DNA of 64,000 nt. Origin: Valencia hispanica. Lineage: Eukaryota; Chordata; Actinopteri; Cyprinodontiformes; Valenciidae. The position numbers and the translations under genes are program-made. Positions 5,236 through 32,900 of this stretch are shown one piece after another (position 1 is the stretch's first letter; each line of letters begins with the position of its first letter). The DNA is taken from assembly GCA_963556495.2 (NCBI GenBank), contig OY747705.1:27277501-27341500 (forward strand), read 5' to 3'. Under the pieces are notes generated by a model. The model was not told the origin of the DNA. It searched no databases and saw only the letters and a list, made by a program, of their open reading frames with translations.

Positions 5236-5334
5236 TGTATAAATATATATATATTATGGGTCAGTAAATATATTAGGTATTATACTATTGTTATATCATG
5301 TTATATATTACATTATAGTCACATCATATTCAAT

Positions 5335-5717: not shown

Positions 5718-5755
5718 GCATTGCCCACCCTTGCCCACCCGTAGAGCCGGCCCTG
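5718..5755. mobile_element. Possible second hAT right end
   Basis: The end gtagagccggccctg, preceded by two ttgcccaccc units, reads in reverse complement as CAGGGCCGGCTCTAC, which looks like a hAT terminal repeat. No matching left end or 8-bp duplication of tctccacg was found, so this may be an orphan end from a nested or rearranged element. Confidence 0.35.
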
Positions 5756-6404: not shown

Positions 6405-6450
6405 TATTGATAGACAGATACTTTATTGATCCCCAAGAGGAAATTCAAGA
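6405..6450 (-). repeat. LINE 3'-tail fragment, antisense
   Basis: Reads gatagacagatactttattg then atccccaagaggaaattcaa. It is the inverted counterpart of the tail at 5198-5235 and also lies inside the hAT element. Confidence 0.6.
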
Positions 6451-7856: not shown

Positions 7857-7975
7857 GCACAAAAAGGGGAGAGAAGCAGGGAGAGAGACAGTCGGCAAAT
7901 ATCCCTGGGCCGGAGTCGAACCCAGGACAACTGCATCGAAGACTAAGGCCTCTGAACATGGGACGCAACACCCGA
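7857..7975 (-). repeat. tRNA-derived SINE, antisense, in the L2 3' region
   Basis: On the minus strand it carries a pol III B-box-like gggttcgactcc (plus coordinates 7912-7923) preceded by gttgtcct and followed by ggcccagggatatttgccga. It aligns by eye with the SINE at 24903-25087, which has gttgtcctgggttcgattct and agggacatttgccgaatgtc. It is inserted antisense in the 3' region of the L2 at 3835-8095. Confidence 0.75.
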
Positions 7976-8186
7976 ATGTCATCAAGCTTTTAAATCTGTG
8001 GGGGAATGATGGGAATGTGGTTTATGTGGGGTCATTTTAATCTGTAAAGCACTTTGAGTTGCAATCTTTGAATGAAAAGCACTTTATAAAGTTTTTTTTA
8101 AATATGATTTGATATACTAGTATGAATGAGTGTGTGGGAGATAATTTTGTCCCAGAGGAGGCGAGACTAAAACTTTGAGATTGTTT

Positions 8187-8366
8187 TCTCACACATAAAC
8201 AAGAACAAACCTCTCATTCATACTAGTATAATCTCACAAATAAACAAGTATTAGCCTCTCATTTACACTAGTATAACCTCACACATAAACAAGTATTAGC
8301 TTCTCATTTACACTAGTATAACCTCACACATAAACAAGTATTAGCCTCTCATTTACAGTAGTATGA
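8187..8366. repeat. 45-bp minisatellite, about four units
   Basis: The unit contains actagtataacctcacacat and aaacaagtattagcctctca and recurs about every 45 bp with few changes. The first unit is the most diverged. It lies at the inner edge of the right inverted-repeat arm. The left arm keeps only a trace of one unit (actagtgcgaatgagag at 3769), so the array probably expanded on one side only. Confidence 0.85.
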
Positions 8367-8690
8367 CCCCACACATGTATATATGAACCCTAAGAGCCTG
8401 TGTGTGCATCAGTTTTGGTATGTATGAGTGAAATTTAGTGGAATATATGTGTGACTTTATTAATGTCGAGTATGTGAGAGAATGCTGCTAGTGGTATAAG
8501 TATGCTTTTCTTGGTGTGAGTGAGAGGGAAACATACATTATGTCCTCTACAGCACCTCATAGTTTTGACTAGAACTTATAAGCCTGTTGCTTCCAACTAT
8601 CTTCAGAAGTGAAGAAGCCTTTTGGATGACAAGTCTTCAAGAAACAAGAGAAGAAGTCCAGTTGCCCTTCTACTTAAGCACTTAGCATCA
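8345..8690 (-). repeat. Right arm of a long inverted repeat
   Basis: Reverse-complement partner of 3505-3793: gaaccctaagagcctg, tgtgagagaatgctgctagt, aacatacattatgtcc, agcacctcat and ttaagcacttag all have counterparts in the left arm. From 8691 to 11662 I see no gene or recognisable element, only an A run at 10421-10440. Confidence 0.72.
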
Positions 8691-11662: not shown

Positions 11663-12213
11663 GGGTGCGTTTCCACTATCGGAACTTCAGGGTAATTTTA
11701 GTCTCTTCATGGTATGTTCATGTCTCCACTTCACCAGGCCGGATAGATAGAGACGTTTTCTGGGCAATTTCAGGGACCAAACAAGTACCAGTGTGGGGGT
11801 ATGTACTCGGAAAAGGCCTGGTAGAGTCGCTGGGTGTAAGCGGTGGTTAAGTAATGCTGATTGGTTGTAATTCAGAGGGAAATGAGCAGACGTTACCAAA
11901 CAACCCGCTTTGTAAAATAGGAAGAGTTGCTGGCGAAGCATTTTATAGCAACATAGGAAACAGAAACACTGCAACCATCCCTGCTTCTTCCATCTTGATC
12001 TCTTGTTATTTCTGCTGCTGTGGGGCCTTGTGGCGCCGATGAGTGATGTTACTCTCTGCCGAAAGAGTCGTCATATGCGGATATCTTAGTAAATTTGTTA
12101 TAGGGCCAATTTTGTATGGAGACACGACGGCTGAGAAGAGTGGGCCAACAGATTATCCTGTCAGATAAAGATCAGGTAAAACTACCCTGAAGTTCCAATA
12201 GTGGAAACGTGCC
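11663..12213. mobile_element. MITE with about 38-bp terminal inverted repeats
   Basis: The left end reads GGGTGCGTTTCCACTATCGG then AACTTCAGGGTAATTTTA. The right end in reverse complement reads GGCACGTTTCCACTATTGG then AACTTCAGGGTAGTTTTA. The roughly 551-bp interior has no convincing coding frame. A target duplication is not clear, so the superfamily is open (Harbinger-like is possible). It lies in intron 3, 86 bp downstream of exon 3 in the direction of transcription. Confidence 0.8.
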
Positions 12214-12299
12214 TATTCATTTCATTTCAAAATGCTAATACCATTTAACAGATTATCATATGTATAACCACAGATGTGGAAATACAGTGATGGACTCAC

Positions 12300-12439
12300 C
12301 CGCTGAGGACCACAATGAAATCCATAACGTTCCAGCCATTCCTAAGGTAGGAACCTTTATGAAACACAAAACCCAGAGCGATGATCTTTATCCCGGCCTC
12401 AAGACAGAACATCCCTATGAAGTAAGGTTCTGTCTTCTC
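12300..12439 (-). CDS. cacna1e: CACNA1E-like calcium channel, exon 3
   Basis: Third coding exon of a voltage-gated calcium channel alpha-1 subunit, the pore protein that opens on depolarisation to admit calcium. It is 140 bp, with acceptor ccaacag before GAGAAGACA and donor GTGAGT after AGCGG. It encodes 46 codons plus two bases: [16 protein letters not shown], then [18 protein letters not shown], then [13 protein letters not shown]. This is domain I segment S2, the S2-S3 loop and the start of S3. The opening LEKTEPYF (with the end of exon 2) fits Cav2.3 as I recall it; Cav2.1 and Cav2.2 have LDDTEPYF there. The exon joins exon 2 in phase 0 and leaves in phase 2. No frameshift or stop is present, so it looks functional. 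Teleosts often have two copies of this gene and I cannot tell which this is. Confidence 0.93.
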
Positions 12440-12550
12440 CTGTTGGAGTGAAATGGCATAAAAAATGAAGATAAATTGTTAGCATATAGACTGACATGTA
12501 AAGGCAGGACAGTTAAGCGATGCTTTAGTTTCCATGTCTAAGTGTCTCAC
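12440..12550 (-). other. cacna1e: Intron 2, ordinary GT-AG, 111 bp
   Basis: Starts GTGAGACACT directly after AAGAGACTG and ends ccaacag before exon 3. It is a short major-class intron, in contrast to the very long minor-class intron before it. Confidence 0.9.
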
Positions 12551-12656
12551 CAGTCTCTTGGACATGGGGGTTTTGTCCTCGCCAGGTAGATGCTGCTCCA
12601 GAGCCAAGACGATGCAGTTGGCAATGATGGTAGTGAGGATCATGTACTCGAATGGA
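12551..12656 (-). CDS. cacna1e: CACNA1E-like calcium channel, exon 2
   Basis: Second coding exon, 106 bp: one base that completes a codon from exon 1, then 35 codons reading [20 protein letters not shown] then [15 protein letters not shown]. It covers domain I segment S1, a hydrophobic helix, and the start of the extracellular S1-S2 loop. Joining exon 1 (GAG TGG CC) to this exon (T CCA TTC GAG) gives EWPPFEY, the conserved Cav2 sequence. The acceptor is the non-canonical AC of a U12-type intron and the donor is GTGAGA. The exon size equals that recalled for human CACNA1 genes. The frame is intact. Confidence 0.94.
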
Positions 12657-12677
12657 GTGAAAGACTAAAGTTAAGGA
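12657..12677 (-). other. cacna1e: U12-type branch point and AC acceptor of intron 1
   Basis: On the minus strand the intron ends TCCTTAACtttagtctttcAC. TCCTTAAC (plus 12670-12677) is the consensus U12 branch-point word, and its branch adenosine lies about 14 nt before the splice, inside the usual 10-20 nt range. There is no AG at the junction that keeps the reading frame. Confidence 0.92.
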
Positions 12678-12796
12678 GCTCAACGTTGTGGATAATGACA
12701 AAATTCAGTTTAAGCAAGGCAATATAAAGACTGACAAAAACAATACAAAAAGGGAAGATTTTTTTTAACTAGCCAAACATTTATTTTAAGAGAAGT

Positions 12797-12960
12797 AGAG
12801 TTTCAAATTCCAACCCAGAGGGCAAGTTTCCTGCTTTAGACTCATCCCTGATCCAACACACCTGAATCAAACAGCTGAATGAACTCTTCAGGATGCAATC
12901 TATTTCCACAGATTCATGCTAATGACCTAATTATTTTATACAGTATTGTTAAAGCAGAGA
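12797..12960. mobile_element. hAT-type MITE remnant near exon 2
   Basis: Contains agagtttcaaattccaaccc and, further on, tgatccaacacacctgaatc, words typical of a common fish hAT MITE. A relative lies at 34938-35164. The ends are decayed and I see no target duplication. Confidence 0.55.
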
Positions 12961-13049
12961 TGCATCTAAAAGTTGAAGAACACAGCAACTGTAAGGTTTC
13001 CTTTATAATAGACTAAAAATGATTTGCACCCTTATAGATTTCTCGAATA

Positions 13050-14110
13050 TTTGCTTTCCTGTCACAAAATAACATAACCAAAAAAAGCTATACACATCAA
13101 GTTGCTCCCATATGTGAAAAAGGAATTGCCCCTAAAGCTAATTAGAAAAGCACTCAGAGAGCGCAACCAAACCCCAACCCCCCCACCAGACGGTGATCGG
13201 GCTAACTAACAAGCAAACAACCAAACAAACCCTGGTGGAAACATAACCTCTTTGGCATAAGTGGTTTTGCCTGTCTTGGTGGCAGAAACTGCCATTACAC
13301 CTTTGTCTTTGATCCATTCTTCTTTGCAGAATTGTTTTAAATCAGCCACTTTGGGAGGGGTAGAATAAATGACCTGTTTAAAGTCATGACATGGTATCTC
13401 AACCCGATTTAAGTATGAGCTTCAACTAGTTGAACATAAAGCTTTAATTTTTCGAGCCACTCAGAAATGGACTTGCTGGTGTGCTTTGGATAATTTCGCA
13501 CTTGAGCAAAAGTTACAAACTAATTGTCAAAGATTATTCTTTGGGGTTTTAAGGTAAGAAGCAGAAATCATACTACACAACCTTAGCTCCACAGTGATTA
13601 CCTGTAGGTACGAAGCTCATTTTCTTAAATGCAGTGCAACAGGAGACACACCATCAAAACGGTTCCACTTTTATCTCATCAGTCCACAGCATATTGTCCA
13701 AAACGTATAGGACCCGTAAAATTGAGCTTTACATATTTTTATTCCACAGTACTTTAACTCTTGGTGGTTTAATGGATTGTGCAGTTGTAATTATAGTTGA
13801 CTCATAAACACTGACCATGACTGGGGCAAGCGTGGCCTGCAACTCTTTGGATGTTGTGGGTTATTTTGTGACCTCCTGGATGAGTTTTCAGTAAACTCTT
13901 GAATTAGTTTTGGTAGGCAGTGGAAAATTATCACCTTTGTTGTCTGTTTTTTTCAGTTTGCACTTATTGGCTCTCTTTGTGGTTTGCTGGTGTCTGGAAT
14001 CCTTAAAAATGGCTTTTTGACCCTCTCTACAAAGATTGATGTGAGGGACTTTCTCATCTGGTCTCAACTTTCTTTAGATTGGGACATGATGTATGGCATG
14101 TTGGAGATTT
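13050..14110 (-). pseudogene. Decayed Tc1/mariner transposase, antisense
   Basis: Read on the minus strand, this region keeps scattered pieces of a Tc1-type transposase. The text around 13470-13500 corresponds to the second catalytic Asp region (antisense gctggtgtgctttggat). The text at 13672-13692 corresponds to the first catalytic Asp block (antisense atctcatcagtccacagc). Around 13860-13890 is an N-terminal piece (tgacctcctggatgag). Many stops and indels separate them. It resembles the older element at 50740-53958. From 14111 to 16578 I see nothing recognisable except an A run at 14260-14280. Confidence 0.6.
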
Positions 14111-16578
14111 TTAAGCCTAATTCATGTTGGTATACAGATTGTATTTGAGTTATTAAGGATAATCAACCTGGTAAATTATAAGTCTTGCGACTGAAAGGCA
14201 ATAAGAGGCTGTCTGTACCTTAACTGGGACCAGCTGTAACACAAACATGCAGAAATAGAAAAAAAAAAAAAAAAAAAAAAGAGTAGTTTTTAAAGAGAGA
14301 TGAGAGCGTGGCCCTAAGATATGATCATATAACAGGGTCACCCCTACTGTGAGCAGCACATTGCATCTACTGTGAAAGCTGTACTGGTTGTTGGTTGAAT
14401 TCTAGCTGCTCTTTATTTAATGCTTAGTGTGGGGGATTTCCTCTCACCTGGTTATGTGCAGAAGGCAGCTTAAACCTGATAAGAGAAGAATGTGACAGGA
14501 GGAAGTGATAAGCAAAAGAAGTAAGATGATCACTGGAGGAGATCATGTTATATAGAGAGTAAGATGCTTGCGAAACAGCATGGTGAAGAGGAGGCGAGTG
14601 AAGCGGGACAGATCGATGCTGTGTTGGCATTTTTATCCAGCAGGGTCACTCAGGAACAAATGAGTGATGAGAAGTTAAATAAAAAGAGTAAACACAATAC
14701 TCCTACTAGCCTATAGGGGCTCTGAGATCAAACAGAGCTGCACTACAGATTGGCTGCTGGGAGAACAAAACCACAGTAAATAACAGTAACAAGAAAATAA
14801 GTGTAAAAAGAGCCCCAATGACCTGCTACTGTAAAAATTCACACGTGGAAGGCATCGTTGATTCTTCTACTACACAGGCTCATTTTAAGAAGCTCTTTAA
14901 ACAAGCTATTCACTCCAATAGCAAAATAAGGAAGGAGAAAGCAAAGTGAGTAAATGAAGATGGAAAAACAGGGGAGGAAGGTATCCAAGCAACAGCATCC
15001 TCTTCCAGCCGCTAAAAGTCAGTGTTATAAAACTGTTACTGGGCAGTTGAAGCGTGTGAGTGGAGGCATCTCATGTGTTGGACCCACAGAAGCTAGACTT
15101 AGACAAAGTGCATCATGTTAAATATCACAACTTGCTAAATACTGGTGATAAATAAATGACAAATCCACCAATAACGCAACGAGGATGCTTCTGACTTTGT
15201 CCAATATAGAACAATTAAGTAATCTTCTTTTACTACTCTTGTTATTTTTGGCTTAATCCAGTTGTGCAATGCACAGTTGTTGCTTTTTTTATTTTGATGG
15301 AAACTAAGAAAAATTAAATTATAAATATATGGAAGGTAACAGTAAGCCTGTCAGAGAGGATAGGTTCATAACCAATTTTTCGAGCTAACAGTGCAGATCA
15401 AGCAAGGCTTGAACACTTAGGCTGGCCAGCAGAGATGACATCAAGGCACAGCTTAGATCTGACCAGCAGAAAAAAAACTACACCACTGTTTTTTCCTGCT
15501 AATCTTTGTACCTCTGATAGAGCCTGGTGTGTTTTTGGCCATCTCCATACCATGATACATTACTGCTTCAGCTTTTTGCTGAATTTTCAAACAGTAACAC
15601 TAGCTATATTCATACTATACTACCTCCATGAAAAAGCATTGAAACAAGTAACTATTTCATTATTGGCACACAAAATGTGGTTCATGAAGCTGAAGGCATC
15701 TCTCCGTTTTGTCAGATCGCCAGCATCCAAACATAATGTTATAACGCCTACCCCTGCAGGAAATGTGATGGGTGCTTCTCCACTTTCCACTCAGTTTGCA
15801 GGAAAACTCAACCTTATGCTCCAAACATGAGAAATAGAATTTCATGTGATCATTTGTATATACATTTATATATGTATAATGCCAATTTTATTGCATTAAT
15901 AACAAATAATACTTTAGTGATATCACTTTTTATATTTTATTGTCTTGTGTTGAAACTGTGCAACAACTGATAGTGTAATAATGGAGAACAATGTAATATC
16001 TGCCAAAAACATGCTTTTGGATCATTTTAAATATAATAAAGGCAAAAACATTATACCGTGACAAAATAATACAATTTTGATGGAATAATGTATTAATATT
16101 TTGCCAGTAGTGTAAGAAGTTATGTTAATTGAAGTTACATTAAAAATCATGTGAAAAAATGACAGTGCTGCAAGGGTAGGTCAAATGAGCTCATTGTTTA
16201 CCTGATCCATAACACATTTCAAGTGAGCTAAATAACAGATGTACTAGTAATTATTGAAATACTAAACATGTGAAAATAGAAATTTAAAAATCTACAAGCA
16301 CAACACTTAATTGTCAAATACACTCTTATAACTATAATTCAGGAAAGAGTGCTGCTCAGTATGCATCCTTGCTTAATTAAAAGAAGGACCACGCTGTCCA
16401 TTATACTTATTTTTGATTAGGAAAATAAAGAAAACCCCCAAGATTCTTTTCTTTCAAACAAATGTAGTTCAACTAATGTATCCTAACAGTGATTATATTT
16501 TCTAAATGTTTTAATGCAATAGGATAAAAACTTTACATTCTAGGCCAATGGTATTGTCATTACTTAGATAGGTGTAGG

Positions 16579-17170
16579 CAGAGGTGGATAGAGTACCCAA
16601 ACATTGTATTCAATAAGAGTAGCTCTACCTCAACATATCTGAACTCAAGTAAAAGTAAAAAGTAGTTGTCCAAAAATGACAAGACTAAGAGCATAAAAGT
16701 ATTTTGAAAAAATGCTACTTGAGTACCTACTAACATCTGATTTAATATCTTTAAAATTATGTCAGACAGACAAGAATATAAAGTTATGGGAGATTCTGGT
16801 ACTTTAAAAGCTAAAAAATAAAAAAATAAAAAAAAATTAAAAAAAAATTGATACAAATAAATTACATAATTACAAAATCACATATTTTAGGCAGAAGAAA
16901 TACTTTCAAAATGTTTTCAATATTACACTATCTATCTATGTACAGGGTAACCAATTGATTAATTGGGTAACCAATTGATTAATTGAAATTAATGGTGTTT
17001 ACCATATGATCACTTGAACTCAAAATTCAGTCAGCTTAACAGATAGAAAATTACATTAGAAAAAAAGCTTGTGCAGAAACAGGTGGTCTCCTTTAATAAA
17101 TAGTAGGCGTGTCTATGTGCCTTGTGTATTTGTTAAAACATGTTTGTTCTTCATTCATTCTGTTCTAAGG
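16579..17170. mobile_element. hAT element, left half only
   Basis: The left end reads cagaggtggatagagtaccc and is followed by the repeated aactcaagtaaaagtaaaaa words of a common teleost hAT family. An interior piece near 17074 (gtgcagaaacaggtggtctc) matches gtgtagaaacaagaggtctc in the element at 46411-48160. No right end was found, so the copy is truncated. A 20-bp unit, gggtaaccaattgattaatt, is tandemly repeated near 16946-16985. Confidence 0.7.
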
Positions 17171-17270
17171 AAAAGATGGAAAACAAAGAATAACTCAAGC
17201 TAAGCACATAAACAGAAATGACAAGACCTGCAAACACAGAAGACTAAAAGCCAAACAACCCAGATCCTAA

Positions 17271-17296
17271 CAGATAATAATAATAATAATAATAAT
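17271..17296. repeat. (ATA)n microsatellite
   Basis: Short run of about seven TAA/ATA triplets in AT-rich DNA. From 17297 to 19242 I see no gene or recognisable element. Confidence 0.85.
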
Positions 17297-19669
17297 ATTA
17301 GCTGAAAAACTTTAAAGTAAAATTACCCGATTTATTACAAAATTGGCAGATATGCTATTGACCATTATTACATTACTAGTTGAATGCAGTAAACTTTTGT
17401 GTGCTTATTAAACAAAGATGCTTTTTGATCAAATCTGCAGATGATGTCATATTGATGAGTACAAAAAGTATTTTTTGCTCTCATCTAACAAAAAATCCTT
17501 CATATTTGCTTAAACACACATCATGCCGTCGCAAAGGGGGGGCATAATTATCAGAATTTTTAAGCCTTTTTGAGAAATTCTAAACTTTATGGGAGCTCCT
17601 TAGGGGAAATGTCTGGCTTATTTTTAGTTGGCTATTCTTAGTGTGCTCCTATCTTACTTTCTTCCCACCTTTCCTGCACTTTTAGTAACTAGGAGAAATT
17701 TCCAGCTTCAGTTTTAAGAATAGCACTGTTTATTAATGTGCGAAGTCTTTAATAAAAAAACTCTTTGATGCTGAGGGTAATTTAAATATTTGGCGATAAA
17801 CCTTTGTTGGTTCTTCACAAAGAAGGCAAATAATCAGTCATTTAATCCACTTATCTACTTAATGTTTTGTTACTGTAAAGTATTTAAAATCTCCTTTACA
17901 TACAGAAGAGATTTACTTATGACATCAAACTGAAAAGTAACTGATGCTCTGATTTCTTTTCCTCACTTTTCTCCTTCTGACTAATCGTGGAAAAAAATGT
18001 GTTAACTTTACGCTTAGTTACGAACTTAAGTGTCTCATCAGCCCCTCTTGCTGTTCTGTTCTGGGTGTCAGACGAATCACGACACATATTGCACGTCAGC
18101 TACCAGCTTCAGGAGTGAGGCGTCTCGTGAGTCCTCTGAGTCACAGTGAAGCTGGCGCTCTGCCTCGACTCCTCAAACATGCGTGTAAAAATAGACACAG
18201 AGACATGAGTGTGATGCCCCGTGCATCTGTGAATACGCTCAAGCACAGATTGGATCCAAACCCCAGTGATTATTGTTATTATTTCGAGGTGAAAATCTAA
18301 ATGAAGCAAAGGCATCTGAGCCTGGCTTATTGGAAATCTGTAAATGATCTGAGCCATGTGTCGGAGTATGAGCTGGAGCCTGCACTGAATAAATATACAG
18401 AAGAAAAGCTTTGTAGTCTGATTTTCTAGGGAAATTGTTCTGTCTTTAAAAAAAGAAGAGTAAAATTTTAATTGAGCTGAAATGTCTAAAATATTTTATT
18501 TTGTGATATCTAATATGAATATACAATGTTAAAATATCAGATGTGGCACACAGCTGTGTTAAAGCTTTATCAGCTATATAAACCAACTATTTCAATGTGG
18601 GTTTCATGTCAAAAATGATGACAGCCTTCTTGTTTGAGAAATGTTCACTTATTGATTTGTTGTCTTTTTATTTATCTCTGGAAAAGAGAATTACAGGTAA
18701 AAACACAACATTAAAATTGTTTTGCTCATTAAACAAGATGCATAAAATAATATTTTCTGTCTAAGCAAAAGGATCAGATACCCTACCCCCAATACCTAGT
18801 GTTACCGCCTTTGGGGCGTTTCATGGATCTACCAGTCAGGGAAAGTTTGTCTCACTCTTCACTTTGAGCTGTGAGATGTTTGAGGGGTTTCTTGCATTTG
18901 AGTAATGAGTATTCTCCAAAAAGAAAAACACAATTTATTTTAACTATACAATTTTGAAACACAAGAAATGACAGCAAATTACTTGTTACTTCTCTGTTCT
19001 AAAGATAGTTCTCGGTGTATGTGTGGATCCCAGCAGTTTGGCTAGTTTAGCTAAAAAGCTGCAGAAACATCAAATTTGTGCTAAATGTTCAGTAATGTTT
19101 ACCTGCCCTTCTCAATGCATGTTTTCATTACTGTGAAATTAGGGTCAACCAAGAACTTGTTAACAGCAGTGGGTAAACAAAAGTCTCTCTACTATGCTGT
19201 AAAGACCCCAGTCCTTAGGAAAGACGGTAACAACAAGGAGCTTAAAGGGATAGCTCGCATTTTCTAACATGAAGTTGTATCCCATCCTCACCATCAGCAT
19301 AGTGCATACACACTGACCCATATCTGTGGTCACCTCCTGGTCAGAGCTCTGGCTGTTAAGCCGCGTTCACACCGGTTAGCGCGTCCAGGCAGCAGGGCAG
19401 CTAGATTACATGCAAGTCTATGGTATCTACGCATCTAGTGGGCGTCAAACTGCCAAGCAGCAAGTCCCGCGCGTCGGCGCAGCTGGCATCAGCGCGTCCG
19501 CGCGGCTGATGCCCGGACGCCCCGACGGTCTGTCGGGGCGTCTGATGCTCAAGTTGGGAAAATTGAACTTTCGGGCAGCAGACGCGCGGCGTCAACCAAT
19601 CAGAGCGACTCGTTGTACTGACGTAGTAACTCCTTCCATGGGGGAATCGGCAAATTTTTTATTCAAGAT

Positions 19670-19798
19670 GGAGGACAAACTGATCGTCGCTGTATGTAAT
19701 GTCCGTGAACTGTATGACCCGTCTTAGTCTTTTTACAAAGACAGGAAGAGATCGGATCTGATTTGGAGGAAGATATCGGAGGATATTGGAGTGCCAGG
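19670..19798 (+). pseudogene. Harbinger MADF/Myb-like protein, first exon remnant
   Basis: From ATG at 19670 it reads MEDKLIVAVCNVRELYDPS, a stop, then SFYKDRKRSDLIWRKISEDI and GVPG, ending at a splice-donor-like CAG|GTAAGC. This matches the start of a MADF DNA-binding domain, the accessory protein of Harbinger transposons. The in-frame stop after LYDPS (TAG) breaks it. The rest of the gene is absent. Confidence 0.65.
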
Positions 19799-19829
19799 TA
19801 AGCAGTTAAACATAGAAAAAAATATTTTT

Positions 19830-20020
19830 TCTTTTAACTTTCTTGTTATGTTAGCTAACGCTACGCTAGCTAACGCACACTTCACACACTTCTCCACAAC
19901 TTCGGGGTTGACTTCCAGTCTGCGGTGAAACATTCTCCACTGTGCAGACCAGATCCCGAATGCATCTTCCACCACCAGCCGGGCCCGGGAGAGCCGGTAG
20001 TTGAAGACGCGCTGCTGATC
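19830..20020 (-). pseudogene. Harbinger DDE transposase, C-terminal remnant
   Basis: The minus strand reads NYRLSRARLVVEDAFGIWSA then QWRMFHRRLEVNPEVVEKCV. The RLSRAR-VVE-AFGI block, with its Glu, is the C-terminal signature of Harbinger (DDE_Tnp_4) transposases, and the Glu is probably the third acidic residue. Upstream catalytic Asp blocks are missing because of the internal deletion. Confidence 0.75.
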
Positions 20021-22565
20021 CGACAAGATCCGCCATGTAGTAAACAACTAGCAACAGACAAATCCACGCCCGCACGCTGACGTAATGACGTGACGCGCTG
20101 ATGCCCCGACGCGCCGATGCAGACCACAAGTGTGCAAGCAGCTGGCTTTAGAAGTCTTTCAACAAAGTAGTCCAGGCTAGTTTCGGGGGCCAACAAACTG
20201 TTCCGTTCTGCTTCAGAAAACTATACGTGTTTGAAACCATGACTCATTTGCATCACAAAAAAAACGCCGGCCAAAATTCGTACTTCACTATTACTCAGCA
20301 CTATTTTCATTCCAATCAATTTGCGCTGCGGCGAGCATCAACTGTTGCGCTCCTCCCGTCAGCTGTTCCACTGTTGAATGTCCATAACATTTCTGATTAT
20401 GAAACACCTGATGATGAAACTCATTTTAGCACAATGCCAGATGGATCGGATGAAGAAGAAACTTTTTACCACAACGCCAGAGGGATACCTTTATGAACTG
20501 GAGTATATGGATGCCGAATTTAAAAGCATTTATTAATGTCATATTGTATACTAGAAGATGCTGGTAAGTTATTGGTGTTTACATTCGTATTGTTAGGGTA
20601 GTAAAAGGTGGAGAGAAGGATAAAGAGAATTAGACAGATCTGGCAAGGTGTTGACTGGGAAAAAGCACACAACAACAAGACATTTTGTCTTGGTTTCTGC
20701 TCATGTATCTTGCTTCTTAATTATTATGATCTCCCCTTCTTTGTCTAAAGGGATAGTTCGCATTTCTAGAGCTTTCACATTTCAAGCTTACAGTGTGACA
20801 TGATCAAGTTCTGTATGATTTTTTAAAATCACATGGTGGTGTGGCATTCAACATTAAGCAGGAACCAAGAGCATTCAAAGACATAAAATCTAACCAATAA
20901 CTAAACCCCAGTCATCCTTAAAACGAAACATGAAAATCCATGAAAATAAACCCAGATTTAAGACTAACTGAAACGCCATCGTCAAAGAAAGATTATGCAA
21001 ACTTGTTTAGTTTCTCAAGATTTTAGCCTGTTTTACTGTTTGGAATGATCATATTTATGTAAAAAATTAAGAAATCTGTGCAGAGAAAAAAAACAGCAGT
21101 TTGACATCCACAGTGAAATTAGTTTAGGACACAAGGAACACCAGGTCCGTGAGGATCCTTTTCCTCCTAATTGTCCATTTTTATTTTTCATGCAAGGATG
21201 CAATTTAGTTAGGGGGAAATTAATGATCCATCTGAAGTTTAAGCAGACTCTAGAGGAATATGTATGGAATCTGTAACCCTAATGGAATTTTTATTAAAAT
21301 ACTAATCTGTGTAATTTTAATCTTTAATGGAGCTTAACGAGAACATCCTGAAAATATAATTGAAGACCAATATGGCTACCCCATTGTAAGGTTTTAAACT
21401 TTAACCTCCACATCTGCTTATCAGCTCTCAGTTAATTTCTGTTTGGACTAATGATGAAAAAAACTATTAAATCCAGCGATAAATTATTTAGAGGTACACC
21501 TTCTCAATGGGAAACTTCCCACCGCAGGGAATCCCAGTGGGGATCAGACAAGAGGAGCAGCTGCCAGTCCTCAGCAGCCTTACAAGTCTAACCTGAGACT
21601 GAGTGCTTCATTAAGCCCTGCCTCTTCCCTGCCAAGGCATCATCAGTCTCAATCAGCTACACCCTCAGGCAGCTAAGCTTGGAGTCAGAGTCATGCATGC
21701 ACAAATGTAACCACGCCTTCCTCTGGTGAGGCACCATGGATATTGTCCGTGACACAGTGCACTCGAATAAATCTAAAAACATGTCATGTGATCTTGTAAG
21801 CTTACCCACACCACTCAGCCTATCGCAGAAGTCTCTGGATATTTCCTGAATTGATTATCCTCTGTTAATTGAACACTCAGAGAAGAAAAGAGGCTCCTAC
21901 AGAGAAATGACAGCTGCAAGTTGTGCAGCAAACACAAGGCTGACCTTTATCAGATGTCCTGCAGAGATAAGAGATTATAAAAGAGTGTGTGAATACCACT
22001 CTACAATTAGCTAATGTAAATATCAGTATCTGTTCTCGATTTGCATGGCTCTCACTTATTACAAATATCTATTTAATAAGACACCCTGATGAAAAGTATG
22101 TATGTACCAGCTGTAGCTTGGAGGTTTTCAAATTGTTAAAAGGTTAAAGCCTCAAAATCACTAATTATTATATAGCGAGGCCCCCCGTTCCCCACCTGTT
22201 GCTGGGGCTGTTAGTCAGCTCAGCTGTGTAAATAACTAAAAGAGAAGTAAACTACTGAACAAGAAAAATATGTGAGCTGTTTGTAACATTTTCATGAAGC
22301 AAAACACACATAAGATCAAAGCTTGGCAACCAGAGGAACATCACCCACTACTCTTTCCAATGTGATGCTATAAAGAAACAAATATTTGTAAGAATCTAAA
22401 AGACTTTGTGTGATTTGCTGTAACTCAAAAAGGCCAATAGAGGCTGGCTACTGAAGCAGATGATAATGAAAAACCATTTTGAACAAGAAAAGTCTTTAGT
22501 GTAGTAGTATTATCATTCAGTCCAGCTTGTTTTAAGTCTGTGTTTCTTTCATAAAAAACATTTTT

Positions 22566-22619
22566 TAAGTAAGTTAGTAAGTAAGTGAACAGTATTTATA
22601 TAGCACCTTTCACAGATAA
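22566..22619 (-). repeat. LINE 3'-tail fragment, antisense
   Basis: Reads aagtaagttagtaagtaagt then gaacagtatttatatagcac and ctttcacagat, the antisense of a LINE 3' end (gtgctatataaat plus short tail repeats). It abuts the left end of the DIRS-like element. From 20780 to 22565 I see no recognisable feature. Confidence 0.5.
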
Positions 22620-22913
22620 AATGTTGGGTTACTTAATGTAATCCCTGGTTTTTTTTATAACAGAGAGGTGTTTCACTATGGAAATCGCCTCTGACCTACT
22701 ACGGAAGCTCCAATGATATCACGTCTGTCTGTTACAGGTTACAGGTTGAGCTGTGTCCGTGGCTCCACCTACCATCCTATATCACGGCCAACCTACCCAT
22801 CCCAACTCATTCTAGGCAGGTTTCTTTCCGTGCTCATGCACGAAGGGATGTCTTGGTGAAACACCTCACTCAGTTATCAAAGAACCAGGGATGAGGTTAA
22901 GTAATCCAACATT
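22620..22913. repeat. Inverted repeat at the DIRS-like terminus
   Basis: The left arm (22620-22680: aatgttgggttacttaatgt, aatccctggtt, agaggtgtttcac) is mirrored by the right arm (22855-22913: gtgaaacacctcact, aaccaggg, ttaagtaatccaacatt). Arms are about 60 bp with a 175-bp spacer. DIRS-type elements carry inverted terminal repeats, so this probably marks the 3' end of the element, although a separate MITE is possible. Confidence 0.7.
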
Positions 22914-23601
22914 CTTTTTCCAACTTCACTCGTTGATTCACTAAGGTAGATATGGCCCACTCCCGGATTGCATGTTGACCCCGAAGCCGTACATGGCAGC
23001 TAACCTAATTCCGGCCTCAGCTGGATCCTGTCAACCCCACTCCAAGCATTGTGTGCGCCAGAGATGGCCGGGCCACATCCATCCTGTAAAACCTCACAAA
23101 TTTTTGTGGAGTCACCCAGCTGACAGCTGCACAGATGTCCTGAACTGACACCCCACAGAACAAAGCCCAAGAAGTCACCATGCACTGGTAGAATGGGGCC
23201 TCACACCTTTAGGGGGCTCAGAGCATGCACACTTATTCACCAGAGTTATAGCCTCCACAATCCAGCGCGCTAACCTTTGACGGGAGACAGGTTTGCCCCA
23301 TGAGTAGTGGTCCAAGACACAAACAGTTGGTCAGCCCTTCTAAACCCTGCTGTCCTGTCCACAAGCCCTCAAAGTTCACACTGGACATAAGCAATTAAGG
23401 CTCTGCTCTTCCAATGAAGAGAAAAGAGGTCGATGGAATGCCAGTAGTTCCATTGAACACCTGTAGGACGACTCCATCACCTTGGGCACAAATGCGGGAT
23501 TTGGGTCTCAGGCACACCTTGGAGAGCCCAGGCACCCATGTAGACTGGGGACTGACAGACGGCGTGTGTAACTCACTTACTCTTAGCCGTGGTCAAGGCT
23601 A

Positions 23602-25270
23602 TTCCATTCCATTCCATTTATTTGATAAAGCACATTTAAAAACAGCATGACAGCTGACCAAAGTGCTGTACAGGAGTGGCACAAAAAAACAAATGAAAAG
23701 ATAAAACAATAAAAGCAGGAACTTGAACATAACAGATAAAACAGCAATAGTGATAAACTAACTCGCTAAAATAACTAGGCACTAAAAGCAAGGAAATACA
23801 AGTATGTCTTTAAGCGAGACTTAAAGACTAAAACGGAGGAAGAGCGTGTGATATCCAACGGGAGTTCATTCCACACTTTTGGAATAAAGAATGTAAAAGC
23901 TCGTTCACCACGGAATTTGCAGCGTAGGCTCGGAATCTGTAGAAGATGGAGGTCACCAGAACGGAGCGTGCTGGCCAGAACGTATGGAGTGAAAAGCTCT
24001 GTTATACAAGTTGGGGCCAAACCATTCAAGGCCTAAAAAACAAACCTAAAATTTTTAAAACTTATCCGATAGTGCACAGGAAGCCAGTGAAGTCTTGCTA
24101 AAATCGGAGTAATGTGCTGCTGACAGCCTGTATTTGTCAAGAATCTTGCAGCTGCATTCTGTATTAACTGGAAGCGGGACAAAGCGGCTTTTGAAATACC
24201 AAAAAGAATGGCATTAAAGTAATCCAGCCTTGAGGTAATAAAAGCATGAATGGTTGTCTCAAGGTGGTGCCGTTTAAGAATGGGTTTTGATTTGGTAAGA
24301 CGTCTCAACTGATAAAAACAGGACTTAACCATGTGATTAACATGAAAGTCCATTTTTAAAGCGGAATCCATTTTAATACCAAGATTAAGAACCGTTTGGC
24401 TAATTTTAAAAGGGAGCGCAGAAAAATCAAGAGCAGAACAGGATGAGCCATTGGGGGTAAAAACAATAAACAGTCTTCTTACCATTTAGCAACAAGAAAT
24501 TGGCAGTCAGCCAGTCCTCAACTTCATCAAGGCAGTCAAGGAGCAGTTGGACTGATGTAAGAGCCTTAGGAGGAACATATATCTGGCAATTGTCCGCATA
24601 AAGATGGTAATTTATGTTAAATTTACTAAAAATAGATTCCAGCGGAAGAATATAGATGCTGAACAGAAGGGGGCTAAGGATAGACCCCTGAGGCACACCC
24701 CAGGGGAGGGCAGCAGAGGGAGATGAACAATCTTCCATCCTCACCCTAATGGACCTGTCACAAAAGTAAGAACGGAACCAGTTAAGCACTGATCCCTTAA
24801 TACCTAACTAAATTTTCTAGACGGGACCACAAGATGACCATATCAAATGCAGCTGAGAGGTCCAGCATAACCAAAACAACATGAAAACCAGAGTCAGTGG
24901 GGGCCTTGCATGGCACAGTGGGTTAAGACGGGCGCCCCATGTTTAGTTCTGCGGTTGTCCTGGGTTCGATTCTGGCTCAGGGACATTTGCCGAATGTCTC
25001 ACCCCCTGTTCCTCGCCCCTTTCTGTAAGCCTGTCCACTTTCAATAAAGGCCACAAAACCTTTAAAAAAAAAAAAAAAAAAAAAAAAGGCAAAACTTGAT
25101 TATAAACAGCCTTTTCGAACACTTTCGACATGAAAGGGAGCTTAGAAATAGGGCGAAAATTCCCCTGGACAGTCAGGTCTAGGCCAAATTTTTTCAATAG
25201 CGGTTGAAGCACAGCATGTTTAAAAGACGTTGGTACAATTCCTGAAACAAGGCTGGAATTTATTATGCTA
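23602..25270 (-). mobile_element. L2-like LINE inside the DIRS element
   Basis: Minus-strand L2, 5'-truncated before the RT. It reads LQPLLKKFGLDL and NFRPISKLPFMSKVFEKAVY (25100-25212), then a SINE insertion, then MLDLSAAFDMV (about 24850) and WGVPQGSILSPLLFSIYILP (24640-24710). LYADNC (24590-24607) stands for the catalytic YADD box with the second Asp changed to Asn. HWLPVHYRISF and LWNELPLDI-like text (VWNELPLDI, 23850-23876) follow. The 3' tail near 23602-23650 has the usual cactttgg word and short (TGGAA) repeats. The 5-bp target duplication ggcta and readable long frames suggest a moderately young insertion. Confidence 0.9.
24903..25087 (+). repeat. tRNA-derived SINE with poly-A tail
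   Basis: Starts ggccttgcatggcacagtgg (A-box-like) and has a B-box-like gggttcgattc at 24962-24972. The 3' part (ttctgtaagcctgtccactt, tcaataaaggcc) ends in a run of about 24 A. It interrupts the L2 reading frame after YNQVLPF. I found no clear target duplication, so some L2 sequence was probably lost at the junction. It is the same family as the antisense copy at 7857-7975. Confidence 0.85.
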
Positions 25271-25834
25271 GGCTAGGAGCAGAGCAGTTTCCAAAGAAAG
25301 AAATGTAATACCGATACCCTCAATGGGTTCAAAGGGATAATGGCAAAGGCCCTCCAGTACCAGAGTGAGGTCCCATAAAGGCACCAGACACCTAGCAATC
25401 GGCAGTTGATGCCATGCCCCCTTCATGAAACAGCACACCAAGGGGTGCTGGCCCACACGTTTGTCATCAAATCCCACATGACAAGTTGAGATTGCGGCTA
25501 AATAGACCTTAATGGTTGAAAAGGCCTTACCCTTTTCCAATATGTTCTATAGAAAGCAGAGCACCTCTGGGCCGGACACAAAAAAAAAAAAAAGGGAATA
25601 ATCTGTCTTTCCCCAAACCATTACTCAAAAACCTGCCATTTATCACTGTAAAGAGAGTGAGTAAAAGAAGCCCTTGCTTGCTGTATGGTGTCGATGACCT
25701 CTGGAGGGAGACCTGTCACATTTAAATTCCACCTCATGGGCCAGGCCCAAGATGCAGGACTTTAGAGGCCGAATGAAGCAATAAAGATTTATTTAAATAA
25801 ATAATGAGAAAAATGTTCAATTCATAAATGGACA

Positions 25835-27330
25835 CACGTTAGACTTGGTTTGGACTGGATACGAGTATTTCTGTTGTCACTGATCTCGGGATCTCTGATC
25901 ATTTTCCTGTTCTCTTCACTGTTGAACTACATTGCCATGTGACGAAATAATTTGTCCCAGTGTAGAGAAGAATTTTTAATGATACGGTTGTGTCGGACTT
26001 TTCTGCTGCCTTTACTAACTCTAAACTATTAGAATCTACGTCAGATTGTGTTGAAGACCTGGCAGACTGTTTTAACAGAATATGTTCTAATATTCTAAAC
26101 CATGTGGCTCCACTTAAAATTATACACTCCAAGCCAAAACCTGAGCCATGGCTGAATGACACCACCCGTGCACTCAGACGTGAGTGTAAATGCACCGAGA
26201 GGAAGCGGAAGGACAGGCTGGATGTGTCTCTGCAAATGCTGTGGGAGTGTTTGTCTGCTTTTCAAAACTCTGTAAAATCAGCTAAATCGCAGTTTATGTC
26301 TAACCTTGAATCCACAAACAGTCACAGACCCCAGGTTGTTTTTAACCGTATTGTTAACAGAGATGCAAACTCAATTGATTCTTTACTGAATTGCTTGAAG
26401 GACATTAAACAATTGATGTCTATTAACTTCCTCAAAGCAAATTATTTAAAAACGGAGATTTAACTTTTTGCCAATCCTGATCATTTAAACGATGTCGCTA
26501 GTCCTCTTAGCCCTTGTTCTTGTTTTTAAAAAAAAAGCTGTGTTAAACACCTTGGAGTGTTCTTACATGATTCTTTTAAGCTTCATAGAAAGGTGAGTGC
26601 AGTAGTCCGGTCAGTTTTTATTTTTTTTATCATTTAAGGCAGTTAGCTAAGGTAAAGCCATACCTTCCTGCTGATCTCTTAAGAGTATGTTATCCATCTG
26701 TTTGTTTCCTGCTGGTTGGACTACTGCAACTCCCTCTACCTTGGCCTGGACCAGTCCTCCTTACATCGTCTTCAGCTAGTACAGAATGGCCCGCTTGCTG
26801 ACTGGGACCAGTAAGTGCGACCACATAACTCTGGTTCTGGCCTCTCGCCACTGGCTTCCCGTTTTCTACAGGATCCATTATAATTTTTTACTTTTTGTTT
26901 TTAAATCCCTTCATGGCCTGGCCCAATTTTATATTTCTGAGCTGTTGACTGTTCATGCTCCCACCAGAAACATGAGGTCCAGCTCTCAATATTTTTTTAA
27001 CAGTCCCTAAAACTTGTTTAAAAACCCGCGGTAACAGAGCTTTTTTGGTGGCTGGTTCTAAGATATGGAACAGCCTACCACCTCACATAAGAACCACACA
27101 TTGTTTAAATCAATTGAAATCCCTACTTAAGACACACCAACTTGACTGGATTTTAATGCAGGTTGACTTTAGCATCTTATTAGTTATTTTTATTGTTATT
27201 AATTGTTTAACTTATCTTATCCATCACTGTGCTTGTATCTTCATTTTATTTCTTCTTTGATTGTTACTCTTTGTGTTACATGTCTTGTTCACCACTTTGG
27301 GGCAGCTTGTGTTACTGTAAATAAGCTATA
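25835..27330 (+). mobile_element. L2-like LINE with the RT deleted
   Basis: Begins in the endonuclease C-terminus (GHTLDLVWTG near 25845). It continues through the linker, with ILNHVAPLKIIHSKPKPEPW and LNDTTRALRRECK at 26090-26190, where DVAPLK/PWL words are typical of L2. Near 26345-26370 it jumps from VVFNRIVN to LNCLKDIKQLMSINFL, so the whole reverse transcriptase is missing. The C-terminal domain (LASRHWLPVFYRIHY at 26840, IWNSLPPHI at 27066) and the 3' tail (ttcaccactttggggcagct) follow. A Tc1 is inserted at the tail. Confidence 0.85.
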
Positions 27331-27332
27331 TA

Positions 27333-28902
27333 CAATGGCTTGCAAAAGTATTCGGCCCCCTTGAACTTTTCCACATTTTATCAATTTTATTGGAGTTCCT
27401 CGTGAAACACCAATACAAAGTGGTGTACACGTGAGAAGTGGAACGAAAATCATACATGATTCTAAACATTTTTTACAAATAACTGAAAAGTGGGGTGTGC
27501 GCAATTATTCAGCCCCCTTTGGTCTGAGTGCAGTCAGTTGCCCATAGACATTGCCTGATGAGTGCTAATGACTAAATAGAGTGCACCTGTGTGTAATCTA
27601 ATGTCAGTACAAATACTGCTGCCCTGTGACGGCCTCAGAGGTTGTCTAAGAGAATGCTGGGAGCAACAACACCATGAAGACCAAAGAACACACCAGACAG
27701 GTCAGGGATAAATTATTGAGAAATTTAAAGCAGGCTTAGGCTACAAAAAGATTTCCCAAGCCATGAACATCCCATGGAGCGCTGTTCAACCGATCATTCA
27801 GAAACGGAAGGAGTATGGCAAAACTGTAAACCTACCAAGACAAGGCCGTCCACCTAAACTCACAGGCCGGACAAGGAGACCGCTGATCAGAAATGCAGCC
27901 AAGAGGCCCATGGTGACTCTGGATGAGCTGCAGAGATCTACAGCTCAGGTGGGGGAATCTGTCCATAGGACAACTATTAGTCGTGCACTGCACAAAGTTG
28001 GCCTTTATGGAAGAGTGGCAAGAAGAAAGCCATTGTTAAAAGAAAACCATAAGAAGTCCCGTTTGCCACAAGCCATGTGGGGGACACAGCAAACATGTGG
28101 AAGAAGGTGCTCTGGTCAGATGAGACCAAAATTGAACTTTTTGGCCAAAATGCAAAACGCTATGTATGGCGGAAAACTAACACTGCACATCACTCTGAAC
28201 ACACCATCCCCACTGTCAAATATGATGCTGGCAGCATCATGCTCTGGGGATGCTTCTCTTCAGCAGGGACAGGGAAACTGGTCAGATTTGATGGGAAGAT
28301 GGATGGAGCCAAATACAGGGCAATCTTGGAAGAAAACCTCTTGGAGTCTGCAAAAGACTTGAGACTGGGGGGGAGGTTCACCTTCCAGCAGGACAACGAC
28401 CCTAAACATAAAGCCAGTGCAACAGTGGAATGGTTTAAAACAAAACATATCCATGTGTTAGAATGGCCCAGTCAAAGTCCAGATCTAAATCCAATCGAGA
28501 ATCTTTGGCAAGATCTGAAAACTGCTGTTCACAAACGCTGTCCATCTAAGCTGACTGAGCTGGAGCTGTTTTGTAAAGAAGAATGGGCAAGAATTTCAGT
28601 CTCTAGATGTGCAAAGCTGGTAGAGACATACCCTAAAAGACTGGCAGCTGTAATTGCAGCAAAAGGTGGTTCTGCAAAGTATTGACTCAGGGGGCTAAAT
28701 AATTACGCACACCCCACTTTTCAGTTATTTATTTGCAAAGAATGTTTGGAATCATGTATGATTTTCCTTCCACTTCTCACGTGTACACCACTTTGTTTTG
28801 GTCTTTCACGTGGAATTCCAATAAAATTGATTCATGTTTGTGGCTGTAATGTGACAAAATGTGGAAAAGTTCAAGGGGGCCGAATACTTTTGCAAGCCAC
28901 TG
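27333..28902 (+). mobile_element. Tc1-like transposon, complete, young
   Basis: A 1570-bp element flanked by TA at 27331-27332 and 28903-28904. The ends are inverted repeats: the left begins CAATGGCTTGCAAAAGTATT, and the right in reverse complement begins CAGTGGCTTGCAAAAGTATT. Similarity continues through cggcccccttgaacttttcc. The element carries one transposase pseudogene. The near-identical ends suggest a recent insertion, here into the 3' tail of an L2. Confidence 0.95.
27674..28685 (+). pseudogene. Tc1 transposase, two frameshifts
   Basis: Cut-and-paste transposase of the Tc1/mariner group. The start MKTKEHTRQVRDK (27674) breaks near 27711, where aaattattgag appears to have lost a base or two. 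Frame 2 gives MNIPWSAVQPIIQKRKEYGK, then RQGRPPKLTGRTRR and TTISRALHKVGLYGR, which is the paired DNA-binding domain. A second frameshift near 28062-28072 leads to an open frame to the stop. That frame has all three catalytic sites: WSDETKIELF (first Asp), FTFQQDNDPKH (second Asp) and SPDLNPIENLW (third acidic residue, Glu). The C-terminus AAKGGSAKY is intact. Length is near the usual 340 residues. Two small indels are the only obvious faults. Confidence 0.92.
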
Positions 28903-28914
28903 TATGTAATATGT

Positions 28915-29665
28915 ATCGACTATGACCAATTAATCATTGTGGGGGATTTCAACATCTATACTGACAAGCGGCAAGATAGATCAAAAATATTAAGTGACAT
29001 TTTTCACAAACTTCGGCCTGACACACCACGTCAAACAACCAACACACAATCAAGGACACATTCTGGACTTACTCATCAGCAAAGGTTTTAATATCTCCAA
29101 CATCTTGGTAATTGATGTTGCGTTATCTGACCATTTCTGTGTTATCTTTGAAAGCACCAGCTCTGCTGAACTATGTAGCCACAGTGAGACAGTGACCACT
29201 ATAAAAAAGCATTTTCTCGGGGAAAGTTCAGTTGAAACCTTTAAACAAATTTACTTTCCCACGTCAACCCCATCCCCTTTATACTCTTACTTCAAATTCA
29301 GTAAATAAACTGGTATATAACTTTCTCTAATATTTCAGACGTCATTGATAACATTGCTCTAACTAAAGTTAAAGTAGTCTTGGGTAGAAAACAGTCTCCA
29401 TGGTATAGCGATCCACTGACTTTGAAAGATGCAAGGGAATTGTTCTTTTCTGAAATCATTAACAGAAACATTAATAATGCGCATATTTTATGTGGAACAG
29501 TTGAGAGACTAACTAATCCTCCTGTGACAGTAGCCCCAGCACTAAAGTAGAGGGTCAATCTGACAATGTTGGTTTATTGCTGCTTTATTTTATCCCCTAA
29601 TCACCAAAAGCACTTTGAATTGCCTTGTTGAAAAATGTACTATACAAATAAAGTTGCTTTGCCTA
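28915..29665 (+). mobile_element. L2-like LINE fragment, endonuclease plus 3' tail
   Basis: Encodes part of the L2 apurinic endonuclease: LIIVGDFNIYTDK (28930-28970, with the GDFN motif), HILDLLISKGFNISN (29060) and ALSDHFCVIFE (29120-29150, with the SDH motif). It then loses the RT and joins a 3' end with agcactttgaattgccttgt and actatacaaataaag. Frameshifts break the frame. It follows directly after the Tc1. From 29666 to 31862 the intron shows no recognisable element. Confidence 0.8.
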
Positions 29666-31853
29666 ATAGGAACTGTGTTTATATCAGTTTGTTAGCATGT
29701 TCAGCTAAGCTTAAATACACCGAATGACATCATCTGTGCATTTGCTGTTGTTTAATCTTCTCAGTTTTTTTATAAGAGCTCAGCATCGCACTCTTCAAAA
29801 TCTAATTATCAAACAAAAGAATAAGAACTGGTGAGTTCCGACTAGCTGTAATAGCATGGCGATCAGACATTACATATAATTAATTTTAATTTCTGTTAAT
29901 CAGATACAATGGAGCTCATTCTACGTAATAAGACACTCCCTTCACAAAGCACATTAATCTGGAGATTAATCAGGCTGGCTGCTTCCCTTCTGGTCGTAAA
30001 AGCACCCACAGCTCTTTGATTTGGATGGGGAACTAAAATGTGCTAACAGATGCAGTTATGGTCCACTTTTGTTAATAAAAAAAACAGCAGTCCATTGGGA
30101 AATCTCAGTTCCCAGACTAAAGATTTAAACCCAGAAAAAAAACTATGAGCAGCAGTCATCAACAAAAGACGGCTCGTTCTATTAGCTGCGTTTATAAGCT
30201 CAGCAATGGAGCAGTAAGTCAGTCAGGAAGCTGCTGAATGGAGCGGAACAATAGTCTGTGAACAGGCCACACCTGGCCTGGACACCTGGTGAGCTACGCA
30301 GTACCAGCAGTGGCACAAACATGCCGCCAATTGACACGTGTGTGCCGCGTCCCCTTCAAGAGGCGGAGCAAAACAGTAAAGCTGTTTTGGAAGTTGATTA
30401 ACTAGGTTTATATTAATAACAGTAAAGTAATGAATTTGTCATATAAAACAGGTATGTTGAGTTTTTAGATTTCTTTTTCAAACCTTATAAAAAGAGAAAT
30501 GCAGAAATAATTAATTCATGTATGAACTAGATTTGAATCCTAATCTGGATAAATTGGGTTGAATTAAACTGTACTAAAATCATTTGGATTGCATCATTTG
30601 ATAGATACCGACTATGGTTAACCAGAAGCACCCCAAACTGCTGCAGTTTTGGAGATTCTCTGATCAAGTCATACAGTCATTGAAGTTTGGCACTTATTAA
30701 ACTTCCTCAAACCATAACCCTTGCCACTTATTTACTGCTTCTGACATATCGACTTTAAGAACTAAATGTTCACTTGCTGCCCAATATATCAAACCCAAAA
30801 ACAGGTGCCATGACGAAAGGATGATCAGTGTTATTCACTTCACCTATCATGATATTTATGTTGGTAGTCTTTAAAGTTCCATAAGTTGACCTGTCTTGCA
30901 AATTAAGTGCTTTACAAAATAAGATGACTAATATCAATAATTGGTTGTTTAACCACAGATTTACTTTTATTAGCTTAATTAGCACAATTATCAAGATTGT
31001 AGTTTACTTGGGTAAACTACAACTTGAAATAGTTGGAAACAGCAGCTCACACATTTTTGAGTGTCAAAACAGAAGCAGCAAATGACACCTGTATTAATCA
31101 GGAAAAGTTTCTCACTTCTGCACTTCAACTTTAATATAAAACAAAAACTTGAATACTTTTTAATGATCAGTATTTTTAACTGAACACATTTTTACATGTC
31201 CAAGCTAAATTAAACACTTCTGTTGTAAGAGTGCTATCCATGGTCCTGAAACTTCCTATGTCCCTTCACTACAGGCCAAAAATGTAGGAGAAAGCCTAGA
31301 ACTACCCACGCATTTCTAAGCAACCATAACCTTCTGTTCACTAGGCCTTAGTAAGAGCTCTGTGAACTTTGGGCTGTATTTTGGGCTAGATCAAGCTTTG
31401 CTTTTACTGATGCACTATTTCTGTTATCAGACCACTGCTTCATAAATGTTCACCCAAAAATATGAGGCTTGGTTTTAGTGCTGAGAAAATTTGCAAAACT
31501 TCAATGGTCAAAGAAAAAATATATATAAACAGAACAATTTTTTATACCATCTTGTCGTGAAAGCTACTTTGAAGAAAAATACTATTATTTATATTTAGAT
31601 CAGGTGCTCCAGTGTGGTTTCATGTCTAGCAACGCCCCTGTTAGGTATATAATCCGCTTTATTTTTCTTACATGTGAAACTCTGCAAAATGGTGAAAGTA
31701 ATGAGATGATTCTTGGAGTAGTTCGGGTGTGGATAAACTGTGAAAAACAGACTTTGTTACTCAGTGATTGTTGGTGACAGTTTACCTACCTTTCATATTC
31801 CATTTAGACACTTTGCACACAGGGTTAGTGTGTGATCACCTCTGCAGCATGAC

Positions 31854-31862
31854 AAAGGATAT
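31854..31862 (-). other. cacna1e: U12-type 5' splice site ATATCCTTT
   Basis: On the minus strand exon 1 ends GAGTGGCC and the intron begins ATATCCTTT, a perfect match to the AT-AC U12 donor consensus. There is no GT at the position required by the protein. Splicing here joins GAGTGGCC to TCCATTCGAG and restores EWPPFE. Confidence 0.95.
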
Positions 31863-32128
31863 GGCCACTCAGTGATTTTCTTAGCGTACTTCCTAACCAC
31901 GTTGTCCTCTCCGAAGATGAACAGCGACCTGTTGACGGTAAAGCAGTTCTCCCTGACCGGGATGGGGTTGTACAGGGCCATGGTGCGGGCGCGCTGAGCT
32001 TTGGTCTGCTTGAAAGCCGGGGAGATCCCACCTGTGGACACGGCGGCGCCATCGCGGTTCCGGTTGCGCTCGGAACCTCCATCCCCGGAGCTCAACAAGC
32101 CCGGGATGTCGTCTCCAAAGCGGGCCAT
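31863..32128 (-). CDS. cacna1e: CACNA1E-like calcium channel, exon 1 (start codon)
   Basis: First coding exon, 88 codons plus two bases, encoding the cytoplasmic N-terminus of a Cav2 channel. It reads [18 protein letters not shown], then a variable Arg/Asn-rich stretch, then [38 protein letters not shown] and [13 protein letters not shown]. The KQTKAQRAR and FIFGEDN words and SGDGxS-RNR near the start match CACNA1E as recalled, rather than CACNA1A or CACNA1B. The ATG at 32128 has A at -3 (gacagaATGG) and begins the conserved MARFG. The frame stays open past the exon only by chance. Regulation cannot be read from the exon. The R-type channel acts in the plasma membrane of neurons and endocrine cells. 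Confidence 0.95.
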
Positions 32129-32900
32129 TCTGTCGGGAAGACGGGGTTAAGGAGGGGAGAAGGAAAGCGGGTTACTGAGCTGTAGTCTTCCACAAATCAG
32201 GGCGCGGTGCCACAATCAGAGTGTCAGCAGCGCGGTGAAGAAATCCTGTTTGGTTTCAGTAATTTGTGAAAACATAATGCTGATAAACTTCAAAGTTGAA
32301 AAGCCAAACCCCAGAAAACGATCTTCCTATTTTTAAGTCACACAAATCCAAAAAAAGTAAGTCAACTCCTTTTTATTTAGCGATCCGCCGTTTAAAATGA
32401 ACCTGTTGGCACTTATTAATTAAGCCCCGTTTGTTTGTATCCATCCGACCTATAAAGTCTGGAAAATAACATCTGCAACAGGTCACATCTCCAAAGTGGG
32501 GAAGAGGCAGCTCGATCCGTGGATGTTAAATAAACCAGCAACACGCCACCGACTAACTGAGAGCGGATCTCTCCCCTCTCCTCTGCTCTGTTGACAACCT
32601 GATCACCATCCTACCACAGAGGACGACGGAAAAAGGAACTCAAGTATTTTCCACAAGGTTTTCCCTCGAAAACGACGCGAACAAAACCAATCTGTCAACA
32701 AAGAGGAGAGAGAAAACAAAAAAGGAAAGCCTCAATCTGTTTTGTCTGAGGGAAGACAATAAAGAGAGCGTGCCGATTCCCCGCAGTGTGTGAGAGCAGT
32801 AGGAAAGGACACAACTGCGACAGGATCAACACACCTCACCTAACCTCTGTCCAACCTACATCTGACAGAAAATAAGGAGAAGGAAAACAATTAGCTATAA
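32129..32900 (-). promoter_or_regulatory. cacna1e: 5' leader and probable promoter region
   Basis: Directly upstream of the start codon the sequence is richer in G, C and CpG (for example agcgcggtgaag, aaaacgacgcgaac and gtgccgattccccgcagtgt) than the surrounding intron and flank. It has purine/pyrimidine-rich blocks near 32570 and 32700. I see no TATA box at a convincing place and cannot fix a start site. An upstream non-coding exon is possible. From 32901 to 34937 I recognise nothing. Confidence 0.4.

Follow-up and report, generated by a model that had tools for sequence, protein, structure and literature searches.

The AT-AC first intron of CACNA1A is said to have been noted in 1996; in mammals the same intron as the one analyzed here is likewise long. 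Cav and Nav channels carry a U12-type AT-AC intron within IS1, at a site conserved across the channel family according to the text and figure legends of PMC6259924. Minor introns are also described in mammalian or human calcium channel alpha genes, all ten in human, in the sections considered of PMC2831892, PMC6865273 and PMC8767276, and Cacna1e is listed among the calcium channel genes with minor introns in the relevant part of PMC6558932. Intron 1 of CACNA1E is not named as such in the portions of the literature on minor-intron channel genes covered here.

The locus examined lies in a window of 64,000 nucleotides from Valencia hispanica (contig OY747705.1), which is the whole stretch of DNA that was analyzed. 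Its long AT-AC intron shows no substantive difference from the domain I S1 introns of Cav1, Cav2, Cav3 and Nav genes in PMC6259924: the family is the same, as are the region where IS1 starts, the ATATCCTTT donor, the TCCTTRAC branch and the AC end, and the present orthologue simply has its own length and transposon load. This likeness is drawn from the text and the legends of Figures 5 and 6 of that paper and applies at the level of IS1, not of the codon.

The gene is read on the minus strand. Exon 1 (coding part 31863..32128, 266 nt) is open from the ATG and ends in phase 2 (CC|), its coding end reading ...ACT GAG TGG CC. Exon 2 (12551..12656, 106 nt) begins TCCATTCGAGTACATG at 12656; it is followed by intron 2 (12440..12550, 111 nt, GTGAGA...CAG), of the major class as judged by its ends, and by exon 3 (12300..12439, 140 nt). 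Joined, the three exons (266 + 106 + 140 nt) form a single uninterrupted frame of 512 nt (...KKITEWPPFEYMILTTIIANCIVLALEQHLPGEDKTPMSKRLEKTEPYFIGMF...). The N-terminus so obtained aligned without gaps to the R-type alpha-1E channel Cav2.3 (PDB chain 7xlq_A, residues 1-136). Among the 14 PDB sequences matched by its 137 aa, Cav2.3 (242.6 bits, E 9.6e-72) scored above Cav2.2 (213.4 bits, E 1.1e-62) and Cav2.1 (202.7 bits, E 2.1e-59). A CACNA1E-like identity, as an earlier note on this DNA had proposed, is supported by this gapless match and by an N-terminus that appears nearer to Cav2.3, the best-scoring Cav2 type, than to Cav2.1 or Cav2.2. A search for channel relatives in viral and prokaryote contigs gave 2 and 17 pattern matches respectively, none of which was confirmed, and an Rfam scan of the whole window at gathering thresholds matched nothing.

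The AT-AC intron occupies 12657..31862 (minus strand, 19,206 nt); its position at domain I S1 and its U12 class follow the description in the text of PMC6259924. It opens ATATCCTTTG... right after exon 1 and closes ...GAGCTCCTTAACTTTAGTCTTTCAC at 12657. The 5′ splice site ATATCCTTT (31854..31862, minus strand) corresponds exactly to the U12-type consensus, and the donor of the AT-AC subtype, ATATCCTT(T), abuts the end of exon 1. At the other edge lies the branch site TCCTTAAC (12670..12677, minus strand); counted from its second A, the last intron base is 14 nt away, and 13 nt follow its final C. This distance is at or slightly past the optimum of 11-13 nt given in the relevant part of PMC3584512, depending on the counting convention. 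Since a C precedes TCCTTAAC, the nonamer CTCCTTAAC agrees with TTCCTTRAC at 8 of 9 letters. The 3′ end is AC, as the AT-AC subtype requires. The join falls in phase 2 and splits EW-P|P-FEYM, with an ambiguity of 1 nt at the junction: the mRNA is identical for CC|AT..CAC|T and C|CA..CA|CT. When the two ends were displaced in parallel (13 equal shifts, from -6 to +6), AT..AC was the sole canonical pair preserving the mRNA and EWPPFEYM, and no GT..AG pair was found. The intron coordinates in the earlier note proved exact, and its ATATCCTTT start, AC end, branch site about 14 nt from the splice and frame-restoring join were confirmed. Its assignment to the AT-AC U12-type class with intact signals also stood, donor, branch octamer and AC end being present at protein-defined edges.

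These signals would mean little without their placement. ATATCCTTT occurs once on both strands of the 64 kb, the exact copy at the donor, against 1.04 copies expected from shuffles, and TCCTTAAC occurs 4 times in the window against 2.67 expected. As both counts are near expectation, the motifs alone carry little information and it is their location at protein-defined edges that counts. The joint chance of donor, branch octamer and final AC at the exon edges is ~7e-11 when the minus strand of the window is modelled as a first-order Markov chain and the branch may take any of 7 spacings (10-16). An exact donor nonamer together with an exact branch octamer at such edges cannot be put down to chance.

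Signals and reading frame are thus directly observed, and we infer from them splicing itself and the use of the minor spliceosome. We hold it almost certain, judging from sequence, that the first coding intron of the CACNA1E-like gene belongs to the ancient AT-AC U12-type family of domain I S1 and is removed by the minor spliceosome. Base pairing of U11 and U12 with ATATCCTTT and TCCTTAAC would lead to excision of the 19.2 kb by the minor spliceosome, which would thereby join ...EW-P to P-FEYM.

The 19.2-kb span might also be removed in steps, or contain inner exons or acceptors that are used alternatively, and would then not invariably act as one splicing unit; we regard this as unlikely. In its favor, a loose rule (branch site with at most one mismatch, AC or AG at a spacing of 8-18 nt) gave 29 branch-and-end combinations in the intron including the true one, 13 of them with AC, and 91 on the whole minus strand. 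Exact TCCTTRAY with AC or AG 8-18 nt on was found in the intron at 12677 (the true site) and likewise, with an end in range, at 24542 (AG, 14 nt) and 14159 (AC, 12 nt). The latter belongs to a U12-like acceptor, TCCTTAAT (14141-14159, minus strand), with a spacing better than that of the true site, and makes a fair decoy. Alternatively spliced minor introns are moreover longer than others, as stated in the part of PMC6717393 considered. On the other hand, 19 kb is expected to yield loose matches, and exact RTATCCTT donors on the minus strand occur only at 31862 and 10524, leaving the intron without a second one. Concerning inner exons, nothing within the intron matched a hand-entered human Cav2.3 probe in tblastn at better than E 2.

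Excision by the major spliceosome, as for the sodium channel AT-AC introns with a G at +5, seems to us extremely improbable. U2-type AT-AC introns are indeed known in sodium channel genes (relevant section of PMC2831892). U12-type introns are described in PMC3584512, in the part used here, as having no distinct polypyrimidine tract, and such a tract is not clearly lacking here because pyrimidines make up 10 of the 13 nt past the branch site (by visual count). The base at +5 is however a C, as opposed to the G of U2-type AT-AC introns, and a full U12 donor and branch octamer are present. That the locus is a retrocopy or a broken pseudogene, with the signals as relics, is scarcely credible: introns 1 and 2 are present, as is the beginning of intron 3, with their signals intact, and the 512 nt of exons 1-3 join without stop or frameshift (the rest of the gene lies beyond the window). 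Nothing was found in favor of such a reading.

The interior of the AT-AC intron is ordinary intronic DNA in which transposon remnants leave the splice signals untouched. A Tc1/Sleeping Beauty-like DNA transposon (~27331..28904, plus strand, antisense to the gene) has flanking TA on both sides (by eye). Between its arms (27327-27518 and 28689-28908) the inverted repeats fall into three stretches (57, 103 and 42 nt, 92-95%). The transposase matches in Pfam, HTH_Tnp_Tc3_2 and DDE_3, are divided between two frames. LINE sequences are present in both orientations: a remnant in broken pieces in gene sense (23802..25272, minus strand), with RVT_1 at 2.5e-12 in 24430-24807 and tblastn similarity to LINE pieces elsewhere in the window, and a 3′ part antisense to the gene (26683..27260, plus strand). 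The stretch upstream of the latter, 25966-26460, may tentatively be assigned to the same LINE from one weak LINE-piece match (8.6e-4); Pfam does not aid this reading, as its sole match there is Med28 (0.0047, below the family cut-off). A DDE_Tnp_4 transposase fragment (19736..20047, minus strand, Pfam 1.8e-9) is one that we take to be PIF/Harbinger-like. By motif, 25271-25546 is presumably recombinase-like and 28994-29305 presumably LINE-endonuclease-like; Pfam gave no match for either. The Pfam sample comprised 13 of the 21 ORFs wholly in the intron, 5 of which had a match at E 0.01, and 7 ORFs from elsewhere. Outside the intron, another Tc1-like element (51270-53015) carries 215-nt inverted repeats 97.7% alike with transposase matches in two overlapping frames, and looks young.

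The better-supported transposon stretches amount to 3,800 bp or 19.8% of the intron (the Tc1-like element counted as 27330-28906). Addition of two doubtful stretches, 25966-26460 and 28994-29305, brings this to 4,607 bp or 24.0%, with 25271-25546 in neither figure. The share of ~20-24% covers recognized remnants and is a lower bound. The intron may have grown by transposon insertion, as suggested in the earlier note; the insertions are real but recognized in only that fraction of it.

The length of the intron agrees with published trends, as far as the parts considered of these sources go. The mean length of U12 introns correlates with genome size (r 0.87), zebrafish shows two comparable length peaks for both intron classes, and the data do not indicate a size limit for U12 introns (PMC7367187). 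Median lengths of major and minor introns are correlated (rho 0.903, PMC10639083), and in the black soldier fly the medians are 4019 bp for minor versus 105 bp for major introns (long-minor-intron literature: PMC7367187, PMC10639083). The parts considered give no length for the present CACNA1E-like intron in PMC7367187 or PMC10639083, and nothing on that length in PMC10228655, PMC4829307, PMC2952598 and PMC8819188.

Within the gene, too, the AT-AC intron does not stand out, even if intron 2 measures only 111 nt. Intron 3 begins GTGAGTCC at 12299, with a GT start, and extends to the window edge; when positions 1-12298 were searched for exon 4 with the hand-entered human Cav2.3 probe (tblastn), nothing scored better than E 5.6, hence a length of at least 12.3 kb. 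It contains LINE pieces around 4.2-4.8 kb and 6.7-7.5 kb, around which lie inverted repeats of ~220 nt, 84% alike and 4.5 kb apart (3572-3789 and 8343-8559). Intron 3 also carries ATATCCTTAAC (10514-10524, minus strand), an exact U12 donor octamer overlapping a branch octamer, probably by chance.

The AT-AC intron was presented in the earlier note as a clear example of the amount of unrelated DNA that a minor intron can accommodate. This claim is weak, since in the sources above minor introns scale in length with the genome and with major introns, and intron 3 is itself at least 12.3 kb long. Conservation of a minor-class intron at this site of the channel family, also put forward there, is correct and already published (PMC6259924, text and legends). 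An AT-AC intron at this position of a channel gene is therefore already described and ordinary, and its significance had been overstated. The locus adds one more orthologue in which the signals of the channel AT-AC intron are kept around a long transposon-bearing interior, and has little weight beyond annotation; there, gene finders accepting GT-AG alone would be expected to miss exon 1 of the CACNA1E-like gene.

We also considered the sequence around the start of the gene. CpG observed/expected was 0.69-0.90 in four 500-bp windows starting at 31,750-32,500 (exon 1 and just upstream). The other 9 of 13 such windows (31-34.5 kb) gave lower ratios: 0.30-0.62 in the four at the shoulders, 0.06-0.16 in the five farther away. 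The peak over exon 1 fits a gene start, as expected. Directly before the ATG (32130-32165, minus strand) lies a pyrimidine-rich sequence resembling a 3′ splice site, with TCCTTAAC at 32153-32146 and CCGACAG|AATGG, which may mark a 5′UTR intron. A second intron of minor or hybrid type directly before the start codon is nevertheless highly doubtful: the CCGACAG end is 17 nt past the second A of TCCTTAAC, a long spacing, and upstream (32129-64000, minus strand) there is no exact RTATCCTT donor, only ones with one mismatch, e.g. at 32812 and 32980. Were it real, U12-type signals would lie on either side of the coding exon 1. Further upstream in the CpG-enriched stretch, AG|GTGAGG near 32840 is a candidate donor for a 5′UTR intron (by eye). 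Finally, a long imperfect AGGA tandem array of ~110 copies is located at 63014-63461.
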